A DNA stretch of 64,000 nt from assembly GCF_001746415.1 (NCBI RefSeq), contig NZ_MEHJ01000001.1, forward strand, positions 5,648,501 to 5,712,500, in the 5' to 3' direction. Below the pieces are notes generated by a model. It did not search any database. It saw only the letters and a list, made by a program, of their open reading frames with translations, and was not told the DNA's origin. Positions 32,068 to 40,637 of this stretch are shown one piece after another. Position 1 is the first letter of the stretch; each line of letters begins with the position of its first letter. This stretch comes from Streptomyces agglomeratus. GTDB lineage: Bacteria; Actinomycetota; Actinomycetes; Streptomycetales; Streptomycetaceae. A program made the position numbers and the translations under genes.

Positions 32068-33620
32068 TCAGCCGAGGTCGCCCGCGGCGGTGCGCTCGGC
32101 GAGCGACACCAGGGTGCGGATCGCGGAGCCGGTGCCGCCCTTGGGGGTGTAACCGAACGGGCCGCCGTCGTTGAAGGCGGGACCCGCGATGTCCAGGTGG
32201 GCCCAGACGATGTCGTCGCCGACGAACTCCTGGAGGAACAGACCGGCGACCAGGCCGCCGCCCATCCGCTCACCCATGTTGGCGATGTCGGCGGTGGCGG
32301 ACTCCATGCCCTTGCGCAGCTCGGCCGGCATCGGCATCGGCCAGGACTGCTCGCCGGCCTCCTCCGCGATCTCGTGGATCGCGGTACGGAACGACTCGTC
32401 GTTGCCCATGACGGCGAACGTGCGGCTGCCGAGCGCCAGCACCATCGCGCCGGTCAGCGTCGCCACGTCGACGATCGCGTCCGGCCGCTCCTCGGACGCG
32501 CGGGTCAGCGCGTCGCCCAGGACGAGACGGCCCTCGGCGTCGGTGTTGAGCACCTCGACGGTCTTGCCGCTGTACATGCGCAGCACGTCGCCGGGGCGCA
32601 CGGCGCTGCCGGACGGCATGTTCTCGGCGAGCGCCAGCCAGCCGGTGACATTGACCTTCAGGCCGAGGCGGGCGGCCGTGATGACGGCGGCGAACACGGC
32701 GGCGGCGCCGGCCATGTCGCACTTCATCGTCTCGTTGTGGCCGGCCGGCTTGAGCGAGATGCCGCCCGAGTCGTACGTGATGCCCTTGCCGACGAAGGCA
32801 AGGGTCTTCTCCGCCTTGGGGTGCGTGTAGGCGAGCTTCACCAGCCGCGGGCCGTGCTCCGCGCCCTGGCCGACGCCCAGGATGCCGCCGTAACCGCCCT
32901 TGGCCAGCGACTTCTCGTCGAGCACCTGCACCTTGAGACCGTGCTCCTTGCCGGCCGCGGCGGCCACCGCGGCGAAGGACTCGGGTACAGGTCGTTCGGC
33001 GGGGTGTTGACCAGGTCGCGAGCGCGGTTGATCTCCTCGGTCAGCGCGAGCGCCCGCTCGGCGGCGGCCTTGAACGCCTTGTCGCGCGGCTTGCCACCGA
33101 GCACGGTGACCTCGGCGAGCGGCTGCTTCGGGCCGTTGTCCCCGGACTTCGCGGCCTTCCCGTCCTTCTCGCCGCCCTGGTACGCGGTGAAGGAGTACGC
33201 GCCGAGCAGCGCGCCCTCGGCGATCGCGGCGGCGTCCTCGACGGCCTCGACGGGCAGGGCGAAGCCGGCCTTCTTGGAGCCGCTCAGCGCCCGGGCGGCG
33301 GCGCCGGCCGCGCGGCGCAGTGCCTCGGCGCTGTACGTGTCGTCCTTGTCCGCGGCGGTGCCCAGGCCGACCGCGAGGACGACGGGGGACTTGAGGCCCG
33401 ACGGTGCGGGCAGCTTGGTCACCTCGCCCTCGCCGCCCGTGGCGCCGAGGGTCTCCAGGACGGTGGCGAGCTTTCCGTCGAACGCCTTGTCCACGGCCTC
33501 GGCGCCCGGTGCGACGACCAGGTTCCCGGACTTGGACCCAGCGCCCTTCGCCACGCCGACGACGATGGCGTCGGCGCGCAGCGCCGCCGCGCCGGAAGTG
33601 CTGAGAGTGAGAGCAGTCAC
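32068..33620 (-). pseudogene. pepA: leucyl aminopeptidase, reading frame broken by a one-base deletion
   Basis: This is an M17 di-zinc aminopeptidase. The N-terminal part starts at GTG 33620 (TALTLSTSGAAALRAD) and runs in frame to RDLVNTPPNDLYP. Near 32982 the frame is lost. One extra base there restores the expected LYPESFAAVAAAAGKEHGLKV, after which the catalytic half continues intact to the stop: VGKGITYDSGGISLKP, GAAAVFAAV and NTDAEGRLVLGDAL. The full length would be 517 residues, normal for the family. The run read as CCGAGTCC on the coding strand should be CCGGAGTCC. No other damage is visible, so a sequencing or assembly error, or a very recent mutation, is likelier than an old pseudogene. 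Confidence 0.9.
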
Positions 33621-33673
33621 GGTGGTGAAATCTCGCTTCCGTTGAGTTCTTCGGCCGATGGGGTGGGGCCGGC

Positions 33674-33732
33674 CGTGCCCGGCGCGTCCGTACCTGGTGG
33701 CCCGGCCGCCCGGCCGGTTGGCGCCGGGCACG
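33674..33732 (-). promoter_or_regulatory. long hairpin between leader ORF and pepA
   Basis: Perfect 12-bp arms (33674-33685 with 33721-33732) enclose a 35-nt loop able to fold again. The hairpin begins 3 nt after the stop of the 15-codon ORF and ends about 55 nt before pepA. It could be a terminator or attenuator in the pepA leader. Confidence 0.5.
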
Positions 33733-33935: not shown

Positions 33936-35981
33936 ATGGCGTACAGGATGCGTATGGGCCGGACCGGAGCGGCATTGGTGGCCGCCGGTCTGCTCGTGGT
34001 GGCGGCCCCGCCGACGGGCGCCGGGGCGGCCACCGTGCCCCGCATCGACCTCCGGGTGCTGGTCGTCGACGACGGCGGCGACGCCGTGGAAGCGGTCGAG
34101 TCCGAGCTGCGCGGCACCGGCGTCCCGTACACCCTCGTACGGCTCGGACAGGAGGGCCGGCCGGTGATCGACGCGGCCTTCCTCGCCGACACGGTGGACG
34201 GACGGCCCCGCGCCAAGTACCAGGGCGTCGTCCTGCCGAACGCGGACCCGTTCGGCGCCGGCTCGGCCGAGGCGGACGCCCTGGCCGCGTACGAGCGGAC
34301 CTTCGGCGTCCGGCAGGTCGACGCGTACAGCTGGGCACATCCGGGTGTCGGGCTCGACTACACCACCGACGGCGGGTACGCCGGACCGCTCGACGGCGTC
34401 GAAGCGGCGGTGACCCCGGCGGGCAGGGCGGGCCCGTTCGGGTACCTGGACGGCGCCGTCGAGTTCGAGGACAACTCGCCGTCCGTCGGCGAGAGCTACG
34501 GATACGCGGGCCGGCCCCGCGAGGGCTACACCAGCTACCTGGACATCCCGGTCGGCGGGGACGGCGGCGGCCGGGCCAGCCTGGTCGGCGAGTACGCCCA
34601 CGACGGGCGCCGCGAACTGGTCGTCACCTTCGCCCACAACCAGCACCAGCGGCAGTTCCGGCTGCTCGCGCGCGGCATCGTCGAATGGCTCACCCAGGGT
34701 GTCCACCTCGGCCAGAGCCGCAACTACTTCTCCGTCCACGTCGACGACGTCTTCGCCCCCGACAGCCGCTGGGACACCGCACTCAACTGCACCCCCGGCG
34801 ACTTCGACTGCGGCGACGGCGAGGGCGGCGGCACCACGCCGATCCGGATGAGCGCCGCCGACGCGCGGTACGCCGCCGAGTGGCAGCAGAGCGCCGGTTT
34901 CACCCTCGACATGGTCTTCAACGGCGGCTCCGGCGAGGCGTGGAAGGCGGAGAATCCGGCTAGTGGCGGCAGTGACCCGCTCACCGCGCAGCTGCTGGCC
35001 GACCGGGCGAAGTACCGCTGGGTGAACCACACGTACACGCACCCCTTCCTCGGCTGCGTGCAGGACACCTCGACCGTCCCCTGGCAGTGCGCGAAGAACG
35101 CGGCGGGCAGCACGCTGTGGATGAGCCGCGCAGAGATCGCCGCCCAGATCAGGAACAACCACAGCTGGGCGGCGGCCAGGGGCATCGCCGTCGACCGGAC
35201 GGAGCTGGTCACCGGTGAGCACTCGGGCCTCAAGACCCTCCCGCAGCAGCCGGCGGACAACCCGAACCTGGCGGGCGCCCTCGCCGACAGCGGCGTGAAG
35301 TGGGTGGCGAGCGACAACTCGCGCGAGCCGGGCCAGCGGGCCGTCGGCGGCGCCCTCACCGTGCCCCGCCACCCGATGAACGTGTACTACAACGTCGGCA
35401 CCGCCGCCGAGATGACCGACGAGTACAACTGGATCTACAGCAGCAGGGCCGACGGCGGCAGCGGCGTCTGCGAGGCCAACCCCGGCTCGACCTGCCTCGG
35501 CGAACCGCTCGACCCCGCCACGGGCTACGCGGAGTACATCGCGCCGCAGGAGGCACGTACCGCGCTCGGCCACGTCATCGCCAACGACCCGCGCCCGCAC
35601 TACGTCCACCAGTCCAACCTGGCCGAGGAGCGGATCCTCTACCCCGTCCTGGACAAGGTTCTGGGCGACTACCGCTCCCTCTTCGCGGACAACACCCCGG
35701 TCGTCAACCCGCGCCACCGGGACGTCGGTACCGAGCTGTCCCGGCGCGCCGCGTGGGACAAGGCGCTCGCCGACGGCAGGGTCACGGCGTACCGCATCGG
35801 AACGACCGTCACCGTCAAGGCGCCGTCGGGGGTCGTCGCGCCCGTCACCGCCCCGGAGGGGGCGCGCAAGCAACTGCTGTTCGGTACGGGCGTGTTCGGC
35901 GCGGCGTACGCGGGACAGCGCTCGGCCTGGACCGCGCCCGAATCGCTCCAGCAGGCGGTCACGCTCCGGCTTCCGGCCTGA
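33936..35981 (+). CDS. exported polysaccharide deacetylase, Agd3/PelA-deacetylase-like (CE18-type)
   Basis: The product has 681 residues. The signal peptide spans residues 1-32 (basic start, ALVAAGLLVVAAP, GAGAA cleavage region). An N-terminal domain of about 230 residues (RVLVVDDGGD...AHNQHQRQFRLLARGIVEWLTQG) precedes the catalytic part. HVDDVFAPDSRWD (Asp270-Asp271) and HTYTH (His365 and His369, an HxxxH pair) are the metal-site pattern of CE4-like deacetylases. YVHQSNLAE near the end probably adds a further active-site His. A C-terminal beta-rich stretch ends the chain. This order of domains matches the fungal galactosaminogalactan deacetylase Agd3, and Pel is processed by a comparable PelA domain. 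It should remove N-acetyl groups outside the cell. It is followed by PelF-like, Sph3-like and GH114 genes. Confidence 0.82.
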   Translation: MAYRMRMGRTGAALVAAGLLVVAAPPTGAGAATVPRIDLRVLVVDDGGDAVEAVESELRGTGVPYTLVRLGQEGRPVIDAAFLADTVDGRPRAKYQGVVLPNADPFGAGSAEADALAAYERTFGVRQVDAYSWAHPGVGLDYTTDGGYAGPLDGVEAAVTPAGRAGPFGYLDGAVEFEDNSPSVGESYGYAGRPREGYTSYLDIPVGGDGGGRASLVGEYAHDGRRELVVTFAHNQHQRQFRLLARGIVEWLTQGVHLGQSRNYFSVHVDDVFAPDSRWDTALNCTPGDFDCGDGEGGGTTPIRMSAADARYAAEWQQSAGFTLDMVFNGGSGEAWKAENPASGGSDPLTAQLLADRAKYRWVNHTYTHPFLGCVQDTSTVPWQCAKNAAGSTLWMSRAEIAAQIRNNHSWAAARGIAVDRTELVTGEHSGLKTLPQQPADNPNLAGALADSGVKWVASDNSREPGQRAVGGALTVPRHPMNVYYNVGTAAEMTDEYNWIYSSRADGGSGVCEANPGSTCLGEPLDPATGYAEYIAPQEARTALGHVIANDPRPHYVHQSNLAEERILYPVLDKVLGDYRSLFADNTPVVNPRHRDVGTELSRRAAWDKALADGRVTAYRIGTTVTVKAPSGVVAPVTAPEGARKQLLFGTGVFGAAYAGQRSAWTAPESLQQAVTLRLPA

Positions 35982-35982
35982 C

Positions 35983-36030
35983 GGCCCAACTGCCCAACTG
36001 CCCAACTGTCCGACTGTCCGACTGTCCGGC
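35983..36030 (+). repeat. six-copy 8-bp tandem repeat
   Basis: Six units of TG-C/T-CC-A/G-AC (first unit GGCCCAAC, last unit TGTCCGGC) run without gaps from just after the deacetylase stop up to a hairpin. Three CCCAA-type units are followed by three TCCG-type units. Confidence 0.75.
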
Positions 36031-36031
36031 C

Positions 36032-36065
36032 CGGGCGGGCCGGGGACCCGTCCCCGGCCCGCCCG
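36032..36065. terminator. hairpin between deacetylase and PelF-like genes
   Basis: A perfect 15-bp stem (36032-36046 with 36051-36065) and a 4-nt loop abuts the tandem repeat. As the downstream gene is only 79 nt away on the same strand, it may act as a partial terminator or attenuator. Confidence 0.75.
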
Positions 36066-36144
36066 CCGCCCTGCCCGACCGCCCGGTGCTGCCCGACCAC
36101 CAGCACCGGCACCGCACTCCGCACTCGCCCTGGGGGACACGCAC

Positions 36145-37689
36145 ATGAGCCGCGGGCATCACGTCAGCATGCTCACCGAAGGCACCTATCCGCACGTCCA
36201 GGGAGGCGTCAGCACCTGGTGCGACCAGCTCGTCCGGGGGATGCCGGACGTCGACTTCCACATCGTCTCGCTCACCGGCAGCGGCCGCGAGCCCGTCACC
36301 TGGGAGCTCCCCGACAACGTCTACCGGCACACGACGGTCCCGCTGTGGGGAGGCCCGGCCGGGGCGCGCGGCGCACGACGCGGCCCGCGCCCCCTCGTCG
36401 GCCGCGACCGCCGCCGCTTCCTCGGCGCGTACGAACGCTTCCTGCTCGCCGTCCTCGACCCGGAGGCCGGCTGCGACTTCGGCCACGAGCTGTACCTCCT
36501 CGCCGCACTCGCCCGCCAGGGCCGGCTGACCCCCGCCCTGCGCTCGGACGCCGCCCTGCGGACACTGACCCGCGTCTGGACGATGCGGCACCTGGCGACC
36601 GCCCGCGCCGAACCGACGCTCCACGACGCGCTCACCGCCGGCGACCTGCTGGAGCACCTGCTGAGGCCGCTGGCCACCCGGATCCCGGCCGACAGCGTCG
36701 CGCACGCCGTCAGCAGCGGACTCGCGACGCTGCCCGCGCTGACCGCCAAGCACTTCGACGGCGCGCCCTTCCTCCTCACCGAGCACGGCATCTACCTGCG
36801 CGAGCGCTACCTCGGCCAGCGCACCGCGACCCAGCGCTGGCCGGTCAAGGCGCTGCTGCTCGGCTTCTACCGGGAGCTGAATTCGCTCGGCTACCGCGAG
36901 GCCGACCTGATCACTCCCTGCAACCAGTACAACCGCCGCTGGGAGGAGCGGGGCGGCGCGCCCGCCGAGCGCATCCGCACCGTCTACAACGGCGTCGACC
37001 CGCACCTCTTCCCGCACGCGGGCCCCGAACCGGACGTCCCCACCCTGACCTGGGCCGGCCGCATCGACCCGATCAAGGACCTGGAAACGCTCGTACGGGC
37101 CTACGCGCTCGCCCGCGCCCGGCTGCCGGAGCTGAGGCTGAGGCTCTTCGGCGGGGTGCCGGAGGGCGGCGAGGAGTACCGCACGAAACTGGAGAAGCTG
37201 GCGGCCGAGCTGGGCGTGAGCGACGGCATCACCTTCGAGGGGCGCATATCCGACGTGGCCCGCGCCTACGGGGCCGGGCACGTCGTGATGCTCTCCAGCA
37301 TCAGCGAAGGCTTTCCCTTCAGCATCCTCGAAGCGATGTCGTGCGGGCGGACGACGGTGTCGACGGACGTCGGAGGCGTACGGGAGGCCGTCGGCGACAC
37401 GGGGCTCGTGGTGCCGCCGCGCGAACCGGACGCCATGGCGCGGGCGGTGCTCGACCTGATGGGCGACGAGGCCCGGCGGACCGAACTCGGGCGGCTCGCG
37501 AGGCAGCGGGTGATCGACCTGTTCACGCTGCGGCGCTCGGTCGAGGGATTCCGCGAGATCTACCGCGAACTGGACGACCGCGGCGTACCGGAGACCGTCG
37601 CGCCCGCCGCTCCGCTTCTTCCCGCCCACTGGACGACCGAGCTCAGGGACCCCTGGTGGAACGACCTGACGACGCACGGGGCGGCGTGA
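36145..37689 (+). CDS. PelF-like GT4 glycosyltransferase
   Basis: The product has 514 residues of GT-B fold, cytoplasmic. The N-terminus SMLTEGTYPHVQGGVSTWCDQLV is the recognisable PelF-type opening, with GG-V-S acceptor loop. The donor half has TWAGRIDPIKDLETLVRAY and the E-x7-E motif SEGFPFSILEAM (Glu388 and Glu396), followed by DVGGVREAV. Pseudomonas PelF polymerises UDP-GalNAc/GlcNAc for Pel polysaccharide. The flanking deacetylase, GH135-like and GH114 genes fit a galactosamine polymer here too. Compared with PelF the middle region is Arg-rich and longer. Its TGA overlaps the next ATG by one base. Confidence 0.88.
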   Translation: MSRGHHVSMLTEGTYPHVQGGVSTWCDQLVRGMPDVDFHIVSLTGSGREPVTWELPDNVYRHTTVPLWGGPAGARGARRGPRPLVGRDRRRFLGAYERFLLAVLDPEAGCDFGHELYLLAALARQGRLTPALRSDAALRTLTRVWTMRHLATARAEPTLHDALTAGDLLEHLLRPLATRIPADSVAHAVSSGLATLPALTAKHFDGAPFLLTEHGIYLRERYLGQRTATQRWPVKALLLGFYRELNSLGYREADLITPCNQYNRRWEERGGAPAERIRTVYNGVDPHLFPHAGPEPDVPTLTWAGRIDPIKDLETLVRAYALARARLPELRLRLFGGVPEGGEEYRTKLEKLAAELGVSDGITFEGRISDVARAYGAGHVVMLSSISEGFPFSILEAMSCGRTTVSTDVGGVREAVGDTGLVVPPREPDAMARAVLDLMGDEARRTELGRLARQRVIDLFTLRRSVEGFREIYRELDDRGVPETVAPAAPLLPAHWTTELRDPWWNDLTTHGAA

Positions 37690-39188
37690 TGAGCGGCTCA
37701 CCGCGCATCGACGCGGGCACGGGCGCGGGCGCCCGGCGGGACAGACCGGCCCGCATGCCGCAGCAGCGGCCGCACTGGGCGGCGGATCCCCTGCGCGAAC
37801 TGGCCGACCGGCTGGGGGAGTCGGTGCCGGCCGCCGTGCACCCCGACGAGATCGCCGCGATCCTCGAATCCGACGGCATGACGGACGACCACATCCGGCT
37901 CACATACGGCCGCGAGGACTCCTTCGCCCTGGCCGAGGACCTGTTCGCCCGGGTGCCCCGGACCGGCCCGCCGCCCCGGCCGGAGCCCCCGCCGCCGGCC
38001 GCGGTCCCGTGGCGCGCCGGCCTGGCCGGATGTCTGCTGCGCGGGCTGGTGTTCGCGCTCCCGGGGCTCGCGTACGTCCTGGGGGCGCCGTTCCTGGCCG
38101 ACGCGGCGGGGGAGGGGCGCGGACTGCCCGCCGGGACGGACGTGCTCCTGGTGGGCGCGCTCGCCGGCTGGGCGTGGAACCAGGCGCTGGCGCACCGCGC
38201 GTACGCCTGGCTGGGCCTCGGTGACCGCGCGTCGGCGGCCCGCGCCCTGCTCATCGGGGCTCCGGCGGGCGCGCTGCTCGGCACGGCGGCGGCGCTCGCG
38301 GTGACCGGGCCGGGGGAGGGCGCGGCGCTCGCCTTCGCCACGGCGCAGGCGGTGTACCAGGGCGCGGCGACGGCACTGCTCGTCCTGGCCCGCGACCGCC
38401 TGCTGCTGTACGCCCTCACCCCGATGGCCCTCGGCGCCCTGCTGACCCTGGCGCTCGACGTCCCGGTGGTGGTGCGGGCGGCGCTGCTGGCGGTGTCGGG
38501 GGCGGCCGTCCTCGCCCTGGCCGGCCGCGAGGTGCTGCGGGCCGGGAAGGTCCGGCGCGGGAGCGCGCGGGCGGCCTCCAACCCCCGGGCCGCCTGCGGC
38601 CCTTCGCTGTGGCGGTCGCTGCCGTACGGGATCTTCGGCCTGGCGACCGGTGTGCTCGTGCTGTACGCCGTCCTCCAGAACCTGCTCGGCCCGGGCACCA
38701 CCGGCGTTGTGGCCGCCCCGGGAGCCGTCGCGCTCACGCTCAGCATGGGGCCCGCGGAGTGGCTCCTGTACCGGTTCCGGCGCGGGTGTGACGCGGGGCT
38801 GCGGGCGAGTACCGCCCACTCCGCGTTCCGGCGGGCCGCCACGCTCACCCTCGCCCGGTGCCTCGGCGGCTACCTCGTCGTACTGCTCGCACTCCTCGCC
38901 GCGACGACCGTACTGTGGATCGGCGCGCCCGTGCCCGACACGACCCGCGCGGCCGGTCTGCTGTTCATAGGCGTCATGCTGTGGACGGGGCTGCTGCTCC
39001 AGGCGTTCGGCGCGGTGGCCGTCGCGGCGACCGTCTGCGCGGTGGCCGCGCTCCTCCAGACGGCGGCCCTGTTCACCGGCCCGGCCGTCACCGGCACCGT
39101 CGCGCTCGCCGTCCCCGGCGTCGCGTCGGCCGTACTGGCGGTCCTCGTCTGCGTACTGCTCGGCCGTGCGACGGCCCACCGCCCCTGA
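37689..39188 (+). CDS. polytopic membrane protein, candidate PelG-like polysaccharide transporter
   Basis: The product has 499 residues. About 105 soluble residues come first (HPDEIAAILESDGMTDDHIRLTYG), then a Pro-rich hinge and roughly 11-12 hydrophobic helices through to the C-terminus. Size and helix number resemble PelG (a MATE/MOP-like flippase), but I see no sequence motif that proves homology. The soluble head is not a PelG feature. It starts on the last base of the PelF-like gene, so the two are translated together. A role in exporting the polymer is inferred from position. Confidence 0.7.
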   Translation: MSGSPRIDAGTGAGARRDRPARMPQQRPHWAADPLRELADRLGESVPAAVHPDEIAAILESDGMTDDHIRLTYGREDSFALAEDLFARVPRTGPPPRPEPPPPAAVPWRAGLAGCLLRGLVFALPGLAYVLGAPFLADAAGEGRGLPAGTDVLLVGALAGWAWNQALAHRAYAWLGLGDRASAARALLIGAPAGALLGTAAALAVTGPGEGAALAFATAQAVYQGAATALLVLARDRLLLYALTPMALGALLTLALDVPVVVRAALLAVSGAAVLALAGREVLRAGKVRRGSARAASNPRAACGPSLWRSLPYGIFGLATGVLVLYAVLQNLLGPGTTGVVAAPGAVALTLSMGPAEWLLYRFRRGCDAGLRASTAHSAFRRAATLTLARCLGGYLVVLLALLAATTVLWIGAPVPDTTRAAGLLFIGVMLWTGLLLQAFGAVAVAATVCAVAALLQTAALFTGPAVTGTVALAVPGVASAVLAVLVCVLLGRATAHRP

Positions 39189-39198
39189 GGATGCCCAC

Positions 39199-39834
39199 GT
39201 GAAGAACCTGCTCGTGCCCTTCTACGAGCACCCCGCCGGGCGCCCGGACGCCTGGGACGCCGTCGTCCGGGCGGCCCCCCGCCTGTACGGCGTCGTGCTC
39301 AACCCCGACAGCGGCCCGGGCGCCGCGCCCGATCCCGCCTTCGCCGCCGTGTCGACGCGCCTGCGCGGGGCGGGCGTTCGCGTCCTCGGGTACGCCGACA
39401 CCGACTACGCGCGCCGCCCGCACGCCGCCGTGGTCCGGGACCTGCTGCGCCACCGCGACTGGTACGGCGCGGACGGCGCGTTCCTGGACCGGGTGACGTC
39501 GGGGGCGGACGCGCTCGCCCACTACCGGCGGCTCGCCGCCGGCGCCCGCGTGGCCGGCGCGGCGGCCCTCGTGCTCAACCACGGCGTCCACCCCGACCCC
39601 GGCTACCTCGAACTCGCCGATCTGCTGGTCACGTTCGAGGGCACCTGGGACACGTACCAGTGCGCCCCCGGGCCCCCGCCGTGGACGGCGGCGCACCCGC
39701 CCGGCCGGTTCTGCCACCTGGTGTACGCCGCACCGCCCGGCGCCGCCTTCACCGCCGGCGTCGGCTGTGCCGTACCGGGCGGGACACCGCACCCCTGGGG
39801 GACCCTGCCGCACGCCCTGGAGGCGGTCCGGTGA
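39199..39834 (+). CDS. spherulin-4/Sph3-like (GH135-type) protein
   Basis: The product has 211 residues of TIM-barrel pattern. LLVPFYEHP and YGVVLNPDSGPG (near residue 35), VLGYADTDYARRP, YGADGAFLDRV, LNHGVHPDPGYLELADLLVTFEG (Glu near 145) and CHLVYAAPPG follow the spherulation-specific family 4 order, whose fungal member Sph3 cleaves galactosaminogalactan. The Asn, Asp and Glu positions expected in the active site are present. No signal peptide or membrane anchor is visible, unlike Sph3. The GTG at 39199 lies 10 nt after the membrane-protein stop, and its end overlaps the GH114 start (GTGA). Confidence 0.8.
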   Translation: MKNLLVPFYEHPAGRPDAWDAVVRAAPRLYGVVLNPDSGPGAAPDPAFAAVSTRLRGAGVRVLGYADTDYARRPHAAVVRDLLRHRDWYGADGAFLDRVTSGADALAHYRRLAAGARVAGAAALVLNHGVHPDPGYLELADLLVTFEGTWDTYQCAPGPPPWTAAHPPGRFCHLVYAAPPGAAFTAGVGCAVPGGTPHPWGTLPHALEAVR

Positions 39835-40637
39835 GGCGCCGACGCGTGTTCCTCCTCGTGCTGCTCCCGCTGCTGCTCCTCGCGGGCTGCACGGGCGGCG
39901 GCCCGCCCGCCCCCGACGACCGCGGACCGGCAGCCGCCCGCTGGCAGCCGGAGCCCGGTCTCGCCTGGCAGTGGCAGCTCAGTGGCGCACTGGACCCGGC
40001 CGTCGACGTGCCGGTGTACGACATCGACGGCTTCGATCACCCCGCCTCGGCCGTCGCTGACCTGCACCGCCGGGGCCGGAAGGTCATCTGCTACCTCTCC
40101 ACCGGCGCGTGGGAGGACTTCAGGCCGGACGCCGGCGAGTTCCCCGCGTCCGTACTGGGCCGGGGCAACGGCTGGAAGGGCGAGCGCTGGCTCGACATCC
40201 GCCGTACCGACGTGCTGGAGCCCCTGATGGCCCGCCGCATGGACCTGTGCCGCGAGAAGGGCTTCGACGCCGTCGAGCCCGACAACATGGACGGCTACCG
40301 CAACCGGACCGGCTTCCCCCTCACCGCGGCCCACCAGCTCGCCTACAACCGCCTGATCGCCCGCCTGGCCCACGACCGGGGCCTGGCCGTCGGCCTCAAG
40401 AACGACCTCGACCAGATCCCGGAACTGGTGGGCGACTTCGACTTCGCGGTCAACGAGCAGTGCGCCCAGTACGACGAATGCCCGAAGCTCACCCCGTTCG
40501 TACGGGCCGGCAAGGCGGTCTTCCACGTGGAGTACGAGCTGCCGACGAGCCGCTTCTGTCCGCAGGCGCGCGAGCTGGGGCTCAGCTCGATGCGCAAGAA
40601 GTACGACCTGGGGGTGTGGCGCCAACCCTGCGCGTAG
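39831..40637 (+). CDS. GH114 endo-alpha-1,4-polygalactosaminidase-like lipoprotein
   Basis: The product has 268 residues. It starts VRRRRVFLLVLLPLLLLAGC, a lipoprotein signal with the LAGC lipobox (Cys near residue 20). The barrel has YDIDGFD (Asp64), VICYLSTGAWEDFRPD, WLDIRRTDVLEPLMARRMDLC and EPDNMDGY (Glu149), the GH114 catalytic pattern shared by Aspergillus Ega3 and the PelA hydrolase domain. It should cut galactosamine-rich polymer at the outer membrane face or act as an export-coupled editor. The GTG overlaps the previous stop by 4 nt. Last gene of the cluster; cobS is convergent 46 nt away. Confidence 0.88.
   Translation: MRRRRVFLLVLLPLLLLAGCTGGGPPAPDDRGPAAARWQPEPGLAWQWQLSGALDPAVDVPVYDIDGFDHPASAVADLHRRGRKVICYLSTGAWEDFRPDAGEFPASVLGRGNGWKGERWLDIRRTDVLEPLMARRMDLCREKGFDAVEPDNMDGYRNRTGFPLTAAHQLAYNRLIARLAHDRGLAVGLKNDLDQIPELVGDFDFAVNEQCAQYDECPKLTPFVRAGKAVFHVEYELPTSRFCPQARELGLSSMRKKYDLGVWRQPCA

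Follow-up and report, generated by a model that had tools for sequence, protein, structure and literature searches.

Introduction

Cationic polymers of the N-acetylgalactosamine (GalNAc) type glue the biofilms of both fungi and bacteria. A Gram-positive operon, pelDEADAFG, has been described in Bacillus cereus and also in some actinobacteria (PMC7112168, PMC13254593); PelF uses UDP-GalNAc, and PelG is a 12-helix MOP protein (PMC13254593). In fungi, Sph3 is reported to be membrane-bound, to act outside the cell, and to be specific for fully acetylated galactosaminogalactan (GAG) (PMC12054363). Bamford et al. (2020, PMC7229062) described agd3-containing operons in bacteria; besides a glycosyltransferase of the cytoplasm and a membrane protein with several spans, these encode GH114 and, in some members of the Actinobacteria, spherulin-4. 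Transfer of the agd3 cluster between bacteria and fungi has already been proposed there, and galactosamine-containing Streptomyces polysaccharides and an endogalactosaminidase of Streptomyces griseus are cited. Here we describe a five-gene operon in a 64,000-nucleotide (nt) stretch of Streptomyces agglomeratus DNA (contig NZ_MEHJ01000001.1; the whole stretch is hereafter called the window). We consider it probable that this operon encodes a monoderm version of a Pel/GAG-like exopolysaccharide machine, with hydrolases on both sides of the membrane.

Results and Discussion

Organization and distribution of the operon

Five open reading frames were confirmed at 33936..40637 of the window, all on the plus strand, and the families proposed for them in the original prediction were upheld by Pfam, NCBIfam, PDB, profile, and fold matches. 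They encode a predicted secreted de-N-acetylase of the CE18/Agd3 kind (33936-35981, 681 residues), a PelF-like GT4 glycosyltransferase (36145-37689, 514 residues), a 12-helix MOP/MATE-like membrane protein (37689-39188, 499 residues), a GH135/spherulin-4-like TIM-barrel protein (39199-39834, 211 residues, GTG start), and a lipoprotein predicted to be a GH114/Ega3-like endo-alpha-1,4-galactosaminidase (39831-40637, 268 residues, GTG start). The overlaps of one base or 4 nt that had been attributed to these genes are present at two of the four junctions, namely, a TGATG stop/start overlap of 1 nt between the GT4 and membrane protein genes (37687..37691) and a GTGA overlap of 4 nt between the GH135 and GH114 genes (39831..39834), whereas gaps of 163 nt (CE18 to GT4) and 10 nt (membrane protein to GH135) separate the others. 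Family scans of the five proteins gave no UDP-sugar 4-epimerase.

The operon and its conservation, including the predicted linkage of the five genes in other genomes, were borne out. Among the 80 best-scoring of 453 confirmed stretches (all 80 are distinct and are named Streptomyces loci found with CE18), 53 have all five genes in the same order. The remainder comprise 10 loci without a GH114 match (short contigs in 2 cases), 3 without a GH135 match, 9 that end early on short contigs after two or three genes, 3 with CE18 alone, and 2 irregular ones. Chance is untenable as an explanation, since the gene order recurs in other genomes. The 453 stretches compare with agd3 homologues reported from 45 bacterial species in PMC7229062. 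Of 150 genomes from the genus, 69 contain CE18 of the window's kind, as do 13 of the 396 genomes in a phylum sample, 6 of the 13 being from the window's genus. GH135 of any type was found in 100 of the 150 and in 11 of the 396 genomes, 7 of the 11 being again from this genus; bacterial GH135 sampling outside the genus is thin.

An M17 aminopeptidase gene (labeled pepA; Pfam) adjoins all 80 named loci, and cobS is present in 66, always on the other side of CE18 (66/66); some of the 14 loci without cobS are on short contigs. These neighbors place this locus type, which we call type A, at a fixed chromosomal site. In the window itself, the M17 aminopeptidase region (32068-33731, minus strand) is covered by two open reading frames that overlap but differ in frame, 32838-33731 and 32068-32967, as would be expected from a frameshift in the gene or a sequence error at this site.

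GH135 is predicted to be a cytosolic enzyme

The GH135 protein matched PF12138 with 99.6 bits and Sph3 in PDB (5c5g) with an E value of 2.1e-14. Its residues D97 and E147 are the counterparts of D166 and E222 in Sph3, and the aligned residues are 56 apart in the 5c5g alignment, which is the spacing of 166 and 222. The D166A variant of Sph3 is inactive (PMC8546845); the catalytic Asp is printed as 196 in PMC12054363, where E222 agrees. D97 is invariant in an alignment of 16 members, and E147 is kept in 15, the exception belonging to type C (see below). In a larger set of 120 relatives, which are the best 120 of 578 matches and thus represent the window's own clade, the catalytic Glu was kept in all 111 proteins that showed the pattern. 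The GH135 of one S. venezuelae entry is 67% identical. The residue following the catalytic Asp distinguishes this clade from Sph3: the position of Sph3 E167 is occupied by R98 in the window and by Gln in most orthologues (Gln in 109 and Arg in 1 of the 110 relatives with a recognizable pattern, of 120), whereas Glu was present in 116 of 116 proteins (of 120) in the list obtained by searching with fungal Sph3, which comprises the best 120 of 340 matches and includes unnamed fragments.

Neither a signal peptide nor a hydrophobic segment at the N terminus was found in the window GH135, as judged by a 15-residue Kyte-Doolittle window, which is not a dedicated signal-peptide predictor. By this measure, the membrane-bound, extracellular location of Sph3 is not predicted for the streptomycete protein. 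In the 112 recognizable relatives (of 120 listed), the first barrel strand begins 1 to 19 residues from the start, and none has a hydrophobic N-terminal extension (0/112), whereas 87 of 108 proteins (of 120) in the Sph3 list have one. For some rows of CE18, GH114, and GH135 (e.g., the GH135 of locus L032), the automatic procedure chose the start poorly, and low values are no evidence of absence there.

We considered whether a mis-called start hides a signal peptide, and this was rejected both for the window, where the frame extends only 11 residues upstream with no higher hydrophobicity, and for the type A group as a whole. Among 80 type A loci, the distance from the membrane protein stop to the codon for the first GH135 strand is at most 60 nt in 75 (69 of the 74 distinct loci); the five exceptions lie at 67, 92, 164, 175, and 451 nt. 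These 80 loci, which are a different set from the 80 named ones, contain both matches and come from two retrieved sets, six loci of the first recurring in the second. We therefore predict that GH135 is cytosolic, because there is no room for a signal peptide. Outside the locus types A, B, and C, hydrophobic N termini were present in six of seven streptomycete GH135 genes, and one of these (L188) has an adjoining GH114 match. The GH135 of a locus in another family of the class (L050) is also without an extension, which weighs against a strict rule. If anything, the predicted location and the residue after the catalytic Asp speak against this GH135 as the direct ancestor of the fungal enzyme.

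The genome carries three related loci, the window locus (A) and two others (B and C). Locus C (L009:6683-12281; about 2921700-2927300 of C1 in the same genome, minus strand) contains only GT4 (PelF, 98.4 bits against a cut-off of 100), a membrane protein, a short-chain dehydrogenase/reductase, and GH135. BLAST aligned the membrane proteins of A and C over 62 residues only, so the gene in C is tied to that in A mainly by this stretch and its position. The order of the four genes was the same in all 13 type C relatives, and no CE18 or GH114 match was found in the 13 fetched 9-kb stretches; these loci, as well as the seven outside types A, B, and C, were picked by hand from genus-wide GH135 matches.

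The type C loci bear on a rather unlikely alternative, namely, that GH135 is exported nonclassically or is a noncatalytic glycan-binding subunit of the synthase, without any hydrolysis of polymer in the cytosol. All 13 type C loci examined retain GH135 with the catalytic Glu replaced, by Ser (9), Ala (2), Thr (1), or Arg (1). Since type C keeps the protein without this residue, a noncatalytic role does seem to exist in the GH135 family; in types A and B, however, both catalytic Asp and Glu are kept, the Glu in every relative in which its pattern was found. As a tentative and somewhat doubtful extension of our proposal, the GH135 barrel may be a cytosolic synthase subunit within a streptomycete family of PelF/MOP synthases. 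In types A and B it would be an active endo-hydrolase by which chain length is set or reset inside the cell, and in type C, where the deacetylase is missing, a catalytically inactive subunit that binds glycan. Fungal Sph3, which is needed for GAG synthesis but is extracellular, would then be a relocated version.

The extracellular enzymes and the nature of the sugar

As a single sequence, the CE18 protein remained under the Pfam cut-offs (27.6), with 15.9 bits for Agd3_CE and 14.6 bits for CBM87, and a PDB search matched no chain, so that a profile was required. A 16-member profile matched Agd3 (6nwz) with an E value of 6.3e-40, the alignment covering profile positions 40-319 and 353-678. Concerning the possibility that the 681-residue protein has an unrelated fold, the structure prediction (pLDDT 88.1) pointed to Agd3 instead, 6nwz being the top Foldseek match (E = 1.4e-28, TM 0.66-0.68). 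Besides a Sec-type hydrophobic N terminus, the protein has a CBM87-like N-terminal domain, a CE domain, and a beta-rich C terminus, and it thus resembles Agd3 in both sequence and predicted three-domain fold. All six catalytic-motif residues, paired with those of Agd3 through the 6nwz profile alignment, are present: the Asp pair D270 and D271 (HVDD), the His pair H365 and H369 (NHTYTH), the Arg R478 (VPRHP), and the His acid H558 (HQSNL), the roles of which in Agd3 are described in PMC7229062. In the 16-row alignment they are conserved in 16, 15, 15, 15, 14, and 16 rows, respectively. A streptomycete CE18 homologue with no other cluster-gene match in its 16-kb stretch (L049:4423-6504) is an outlier of this alignment, with D271, H365, and H369 replaced, and it is possibly a dead copy.

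The GH114 protein matched PF03537 with 292.6 bits and Ega3 (6oj1) with an E value of 3.5e-58, and its lipobox (LLAGC) marks it as a lipoprotein. D151 and E209 stand at the positions of Ega3 D189 and E247; the Ega3 numbers are from PMC12054363 and were mapped by their 58-residue spacing.

The second related locus, B, consists of eight genes (L008:5624-14986; about 7167600-7176986 of C1 in the same genome, minus strand), coding for CE18, GT4, the membrane protein, a LegB-like dehydratase, a nucleotidyltransferase, a short-chain dehydrogenase/reductase, GH135, and GH114. The proteins shared by A and B are 65% (CE18), 63% (GT4), 47% (membrane protein), 56% (GH135), and 73% (GH114) identical, and the extra genes suggest a sugar-nucleotide supply or modification that is missing from the window locus. 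It is therefore worth considering, as an unlikely explanation, that the same type of machine handles another amino sugar, such as a 6-deoxy-N-acetylhexosamine or mixed N-acetylhexosamines, with shifted specificities of CE18 and GH114. The LegB-like 4,6-dehydratase (452 bits, cut-off 475), the sugar-1-phosphate nucleotidyltransferase, and the second short-chain dehydrogenase/reductase stand beside a GT4 that shares 63% identity with that of the window, in accordance with this idea. However, these sugar genes are absent from locus A, where GH114 is strongly Ega3-like with both catalytic residues and the CE18 motifs match those of the GalNAc deacetylase Agd3.

GT4 and the candidate exporter

The GT4 exceeded the cut-off of the NCBIfam PelF equivalog (171.8 against 100 bits) and consists of DUF3492 (PF11997, 184.9 bits) and GT1 domains. 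Its EX7E motif begins at E388. The membrane protein has 12 long helices behind a small N-terminal helical domain, and its model conforms to the 12-helix MOP (MATE/Wzx) fold. This N-terminal domain, ahead of the transmembrane part, is conserved (37770-37960, around HPDEIAAILESDGMTDDHIRLTYGREDSFALAEDLFARV).

Identity of the membrane protein with PelG was rejected at the sequence level: PF16933 (PelG) matched neither this protein nor the genome, whereas the control was matched in Thermotoga maritima, and a profile comparison with a shallow PelG alignment gave 0.2%. The PelD_GGDEF model (PF16963) matched nothing in the genome, yet no control was matched either. By family, none of the five genes is PelB, PelC, or PelE, at which no search was aimed. 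We propose that the membrane protein is the polymer exporter in the place of PelG.

Hybrid loci in two genomes of one genus from another actinobacterial family (L054:3993-13043 and L056:2915-11928) contain a GAF-GGDEF protein, PelF, a true PelG, and CE18, together with a secreted-type GH135 on the opposite strand. In L054, PelF scored 490.7 bits and PelG 475.3 bits. A six-frame search of the two genomes gave PelG with 459 and 470.6 bits. Judged solely by its domain order, the GAF-GGDEF protein may be PelD-like. The GH135 proteins of both loci have a hydrophobic N-terminal extension and keep the Asp-Glu pair of Sph3. PelG sits between PelF and CE18, adjoining the GT4 as the Streptomyces MOP protein does. 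This mixture of pel and GAG parts supports a kinship between the Streptomyces set and the pel machine, with a different exporter. It is quite improbable that the membrane protein flips a lipid-linked oligosaccharide in the manner of Wzx and that the cluster builds a cell-wall glycopolymer or glycolipid, and not a synthase-type exopolysaccharide. None of the five genes, to which this search was confined, is by family an initiating phosphoglycosyltransferase, a Wzy-like polymerase, or a ligase; the GT4 that accompanies the membrane protein is PelF-like; and PelG holds the matching place in the two hybrid loci.

Proposed mechanism

In the Pel/GAG-like machine that we favor, the cytosolic PelF-type GT4 would polymerize an N-acetylhexosamine, most likely alpha-1,4-linked GalNAc from UDP-GalNAc, and the MOP-fold membrane protein would export the chain. 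GH135 would act at the inner face on the still fully acetylated chain, where it might trim it, release or clear stalled chains, or set chain length. Outside the cell, the secreted CE18 would partly deacetylate the polymer, and the GH114 lipoprotein would cut the deacetylated stretches. We propose that the two hydrolases are split across the membrane in keeping with the acetylation state of their substrates. The product would be cationic and might serve in adhesion or, as the original prediction also has it, in a sheath. If this is true, the operon provides genes that could account for the galactosamine-containing polysaccharides of Streptomyces and the S. griseus endogalactosaminidase, as well as a genetically easy bacterial model of the Agd3, Sph3, and Ega3 enzymes. 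Furthermore, a cytosolic GH135 would permit a direct test of why polymer synthesis needs a hydrolase, as has been asked for Sph3.

Comparison with known systems

The combination of a bacterial transferase and membrane protein with enzymes of the Agd3, Ega3, and spherulin-4 types in Actinobacteria, as well as the idea of a bacterial origin of the fungal cluster, both raised in the original prediction, is already published (PMC7229062). The missing signal peptide of GH135, the two further loci, and the MOP fold had no part in that prediction. The MOP fold, the topology of spherulin-4, and the presence of several loci per genome are not discussed in sections 13-14 of the paper, and our searches of the open-licence PubMed Central literature turned up no article devoted to this streptomycete locus, nor any on a GH135 in the cytosol.

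Like the Gram-positive pelDEADAFG operon as described in PMC7112168 and PMC13254593, the streptomycete operon has a PelF-type GT4, a predicted 12-helix MOP exporter, and an extracellular deacetylase, with no outer-membrane parts seen. It differs in that PelG is replaced by a MOP protein without detected sequence relation, PelD and PelE were not recognized (the PelD model matched no control either, and PelE was not searched for), the deacetylase belongs to CE18 and not to CE26 as PelADA does, and GH114 and GH135 are added. With the GAG cluster of Aspergillus fumigatus it shares the grouping of Agd3, Ega3, and Sph3 homologues with a glycosyltransferase, although GT4 and exporter are separate proteins in Streptomyces and the locus has no epimerase. 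Most proteins of the Sph3 list have a hydrophobic N-terminal segment, whereas the streptomycete GH135 has neither this segment nor the Glu that follows the catalytic Asp in Sph3. Thus, as far as the open-licence literature shows, the apparently new features are the predicted cytosolic GH135, the candidate MOP-fold exporter, for which no relation to PelG was detected by sequence, the existence of three locus types, of which type C has a dead GH135, and the fixed chromosomal site.

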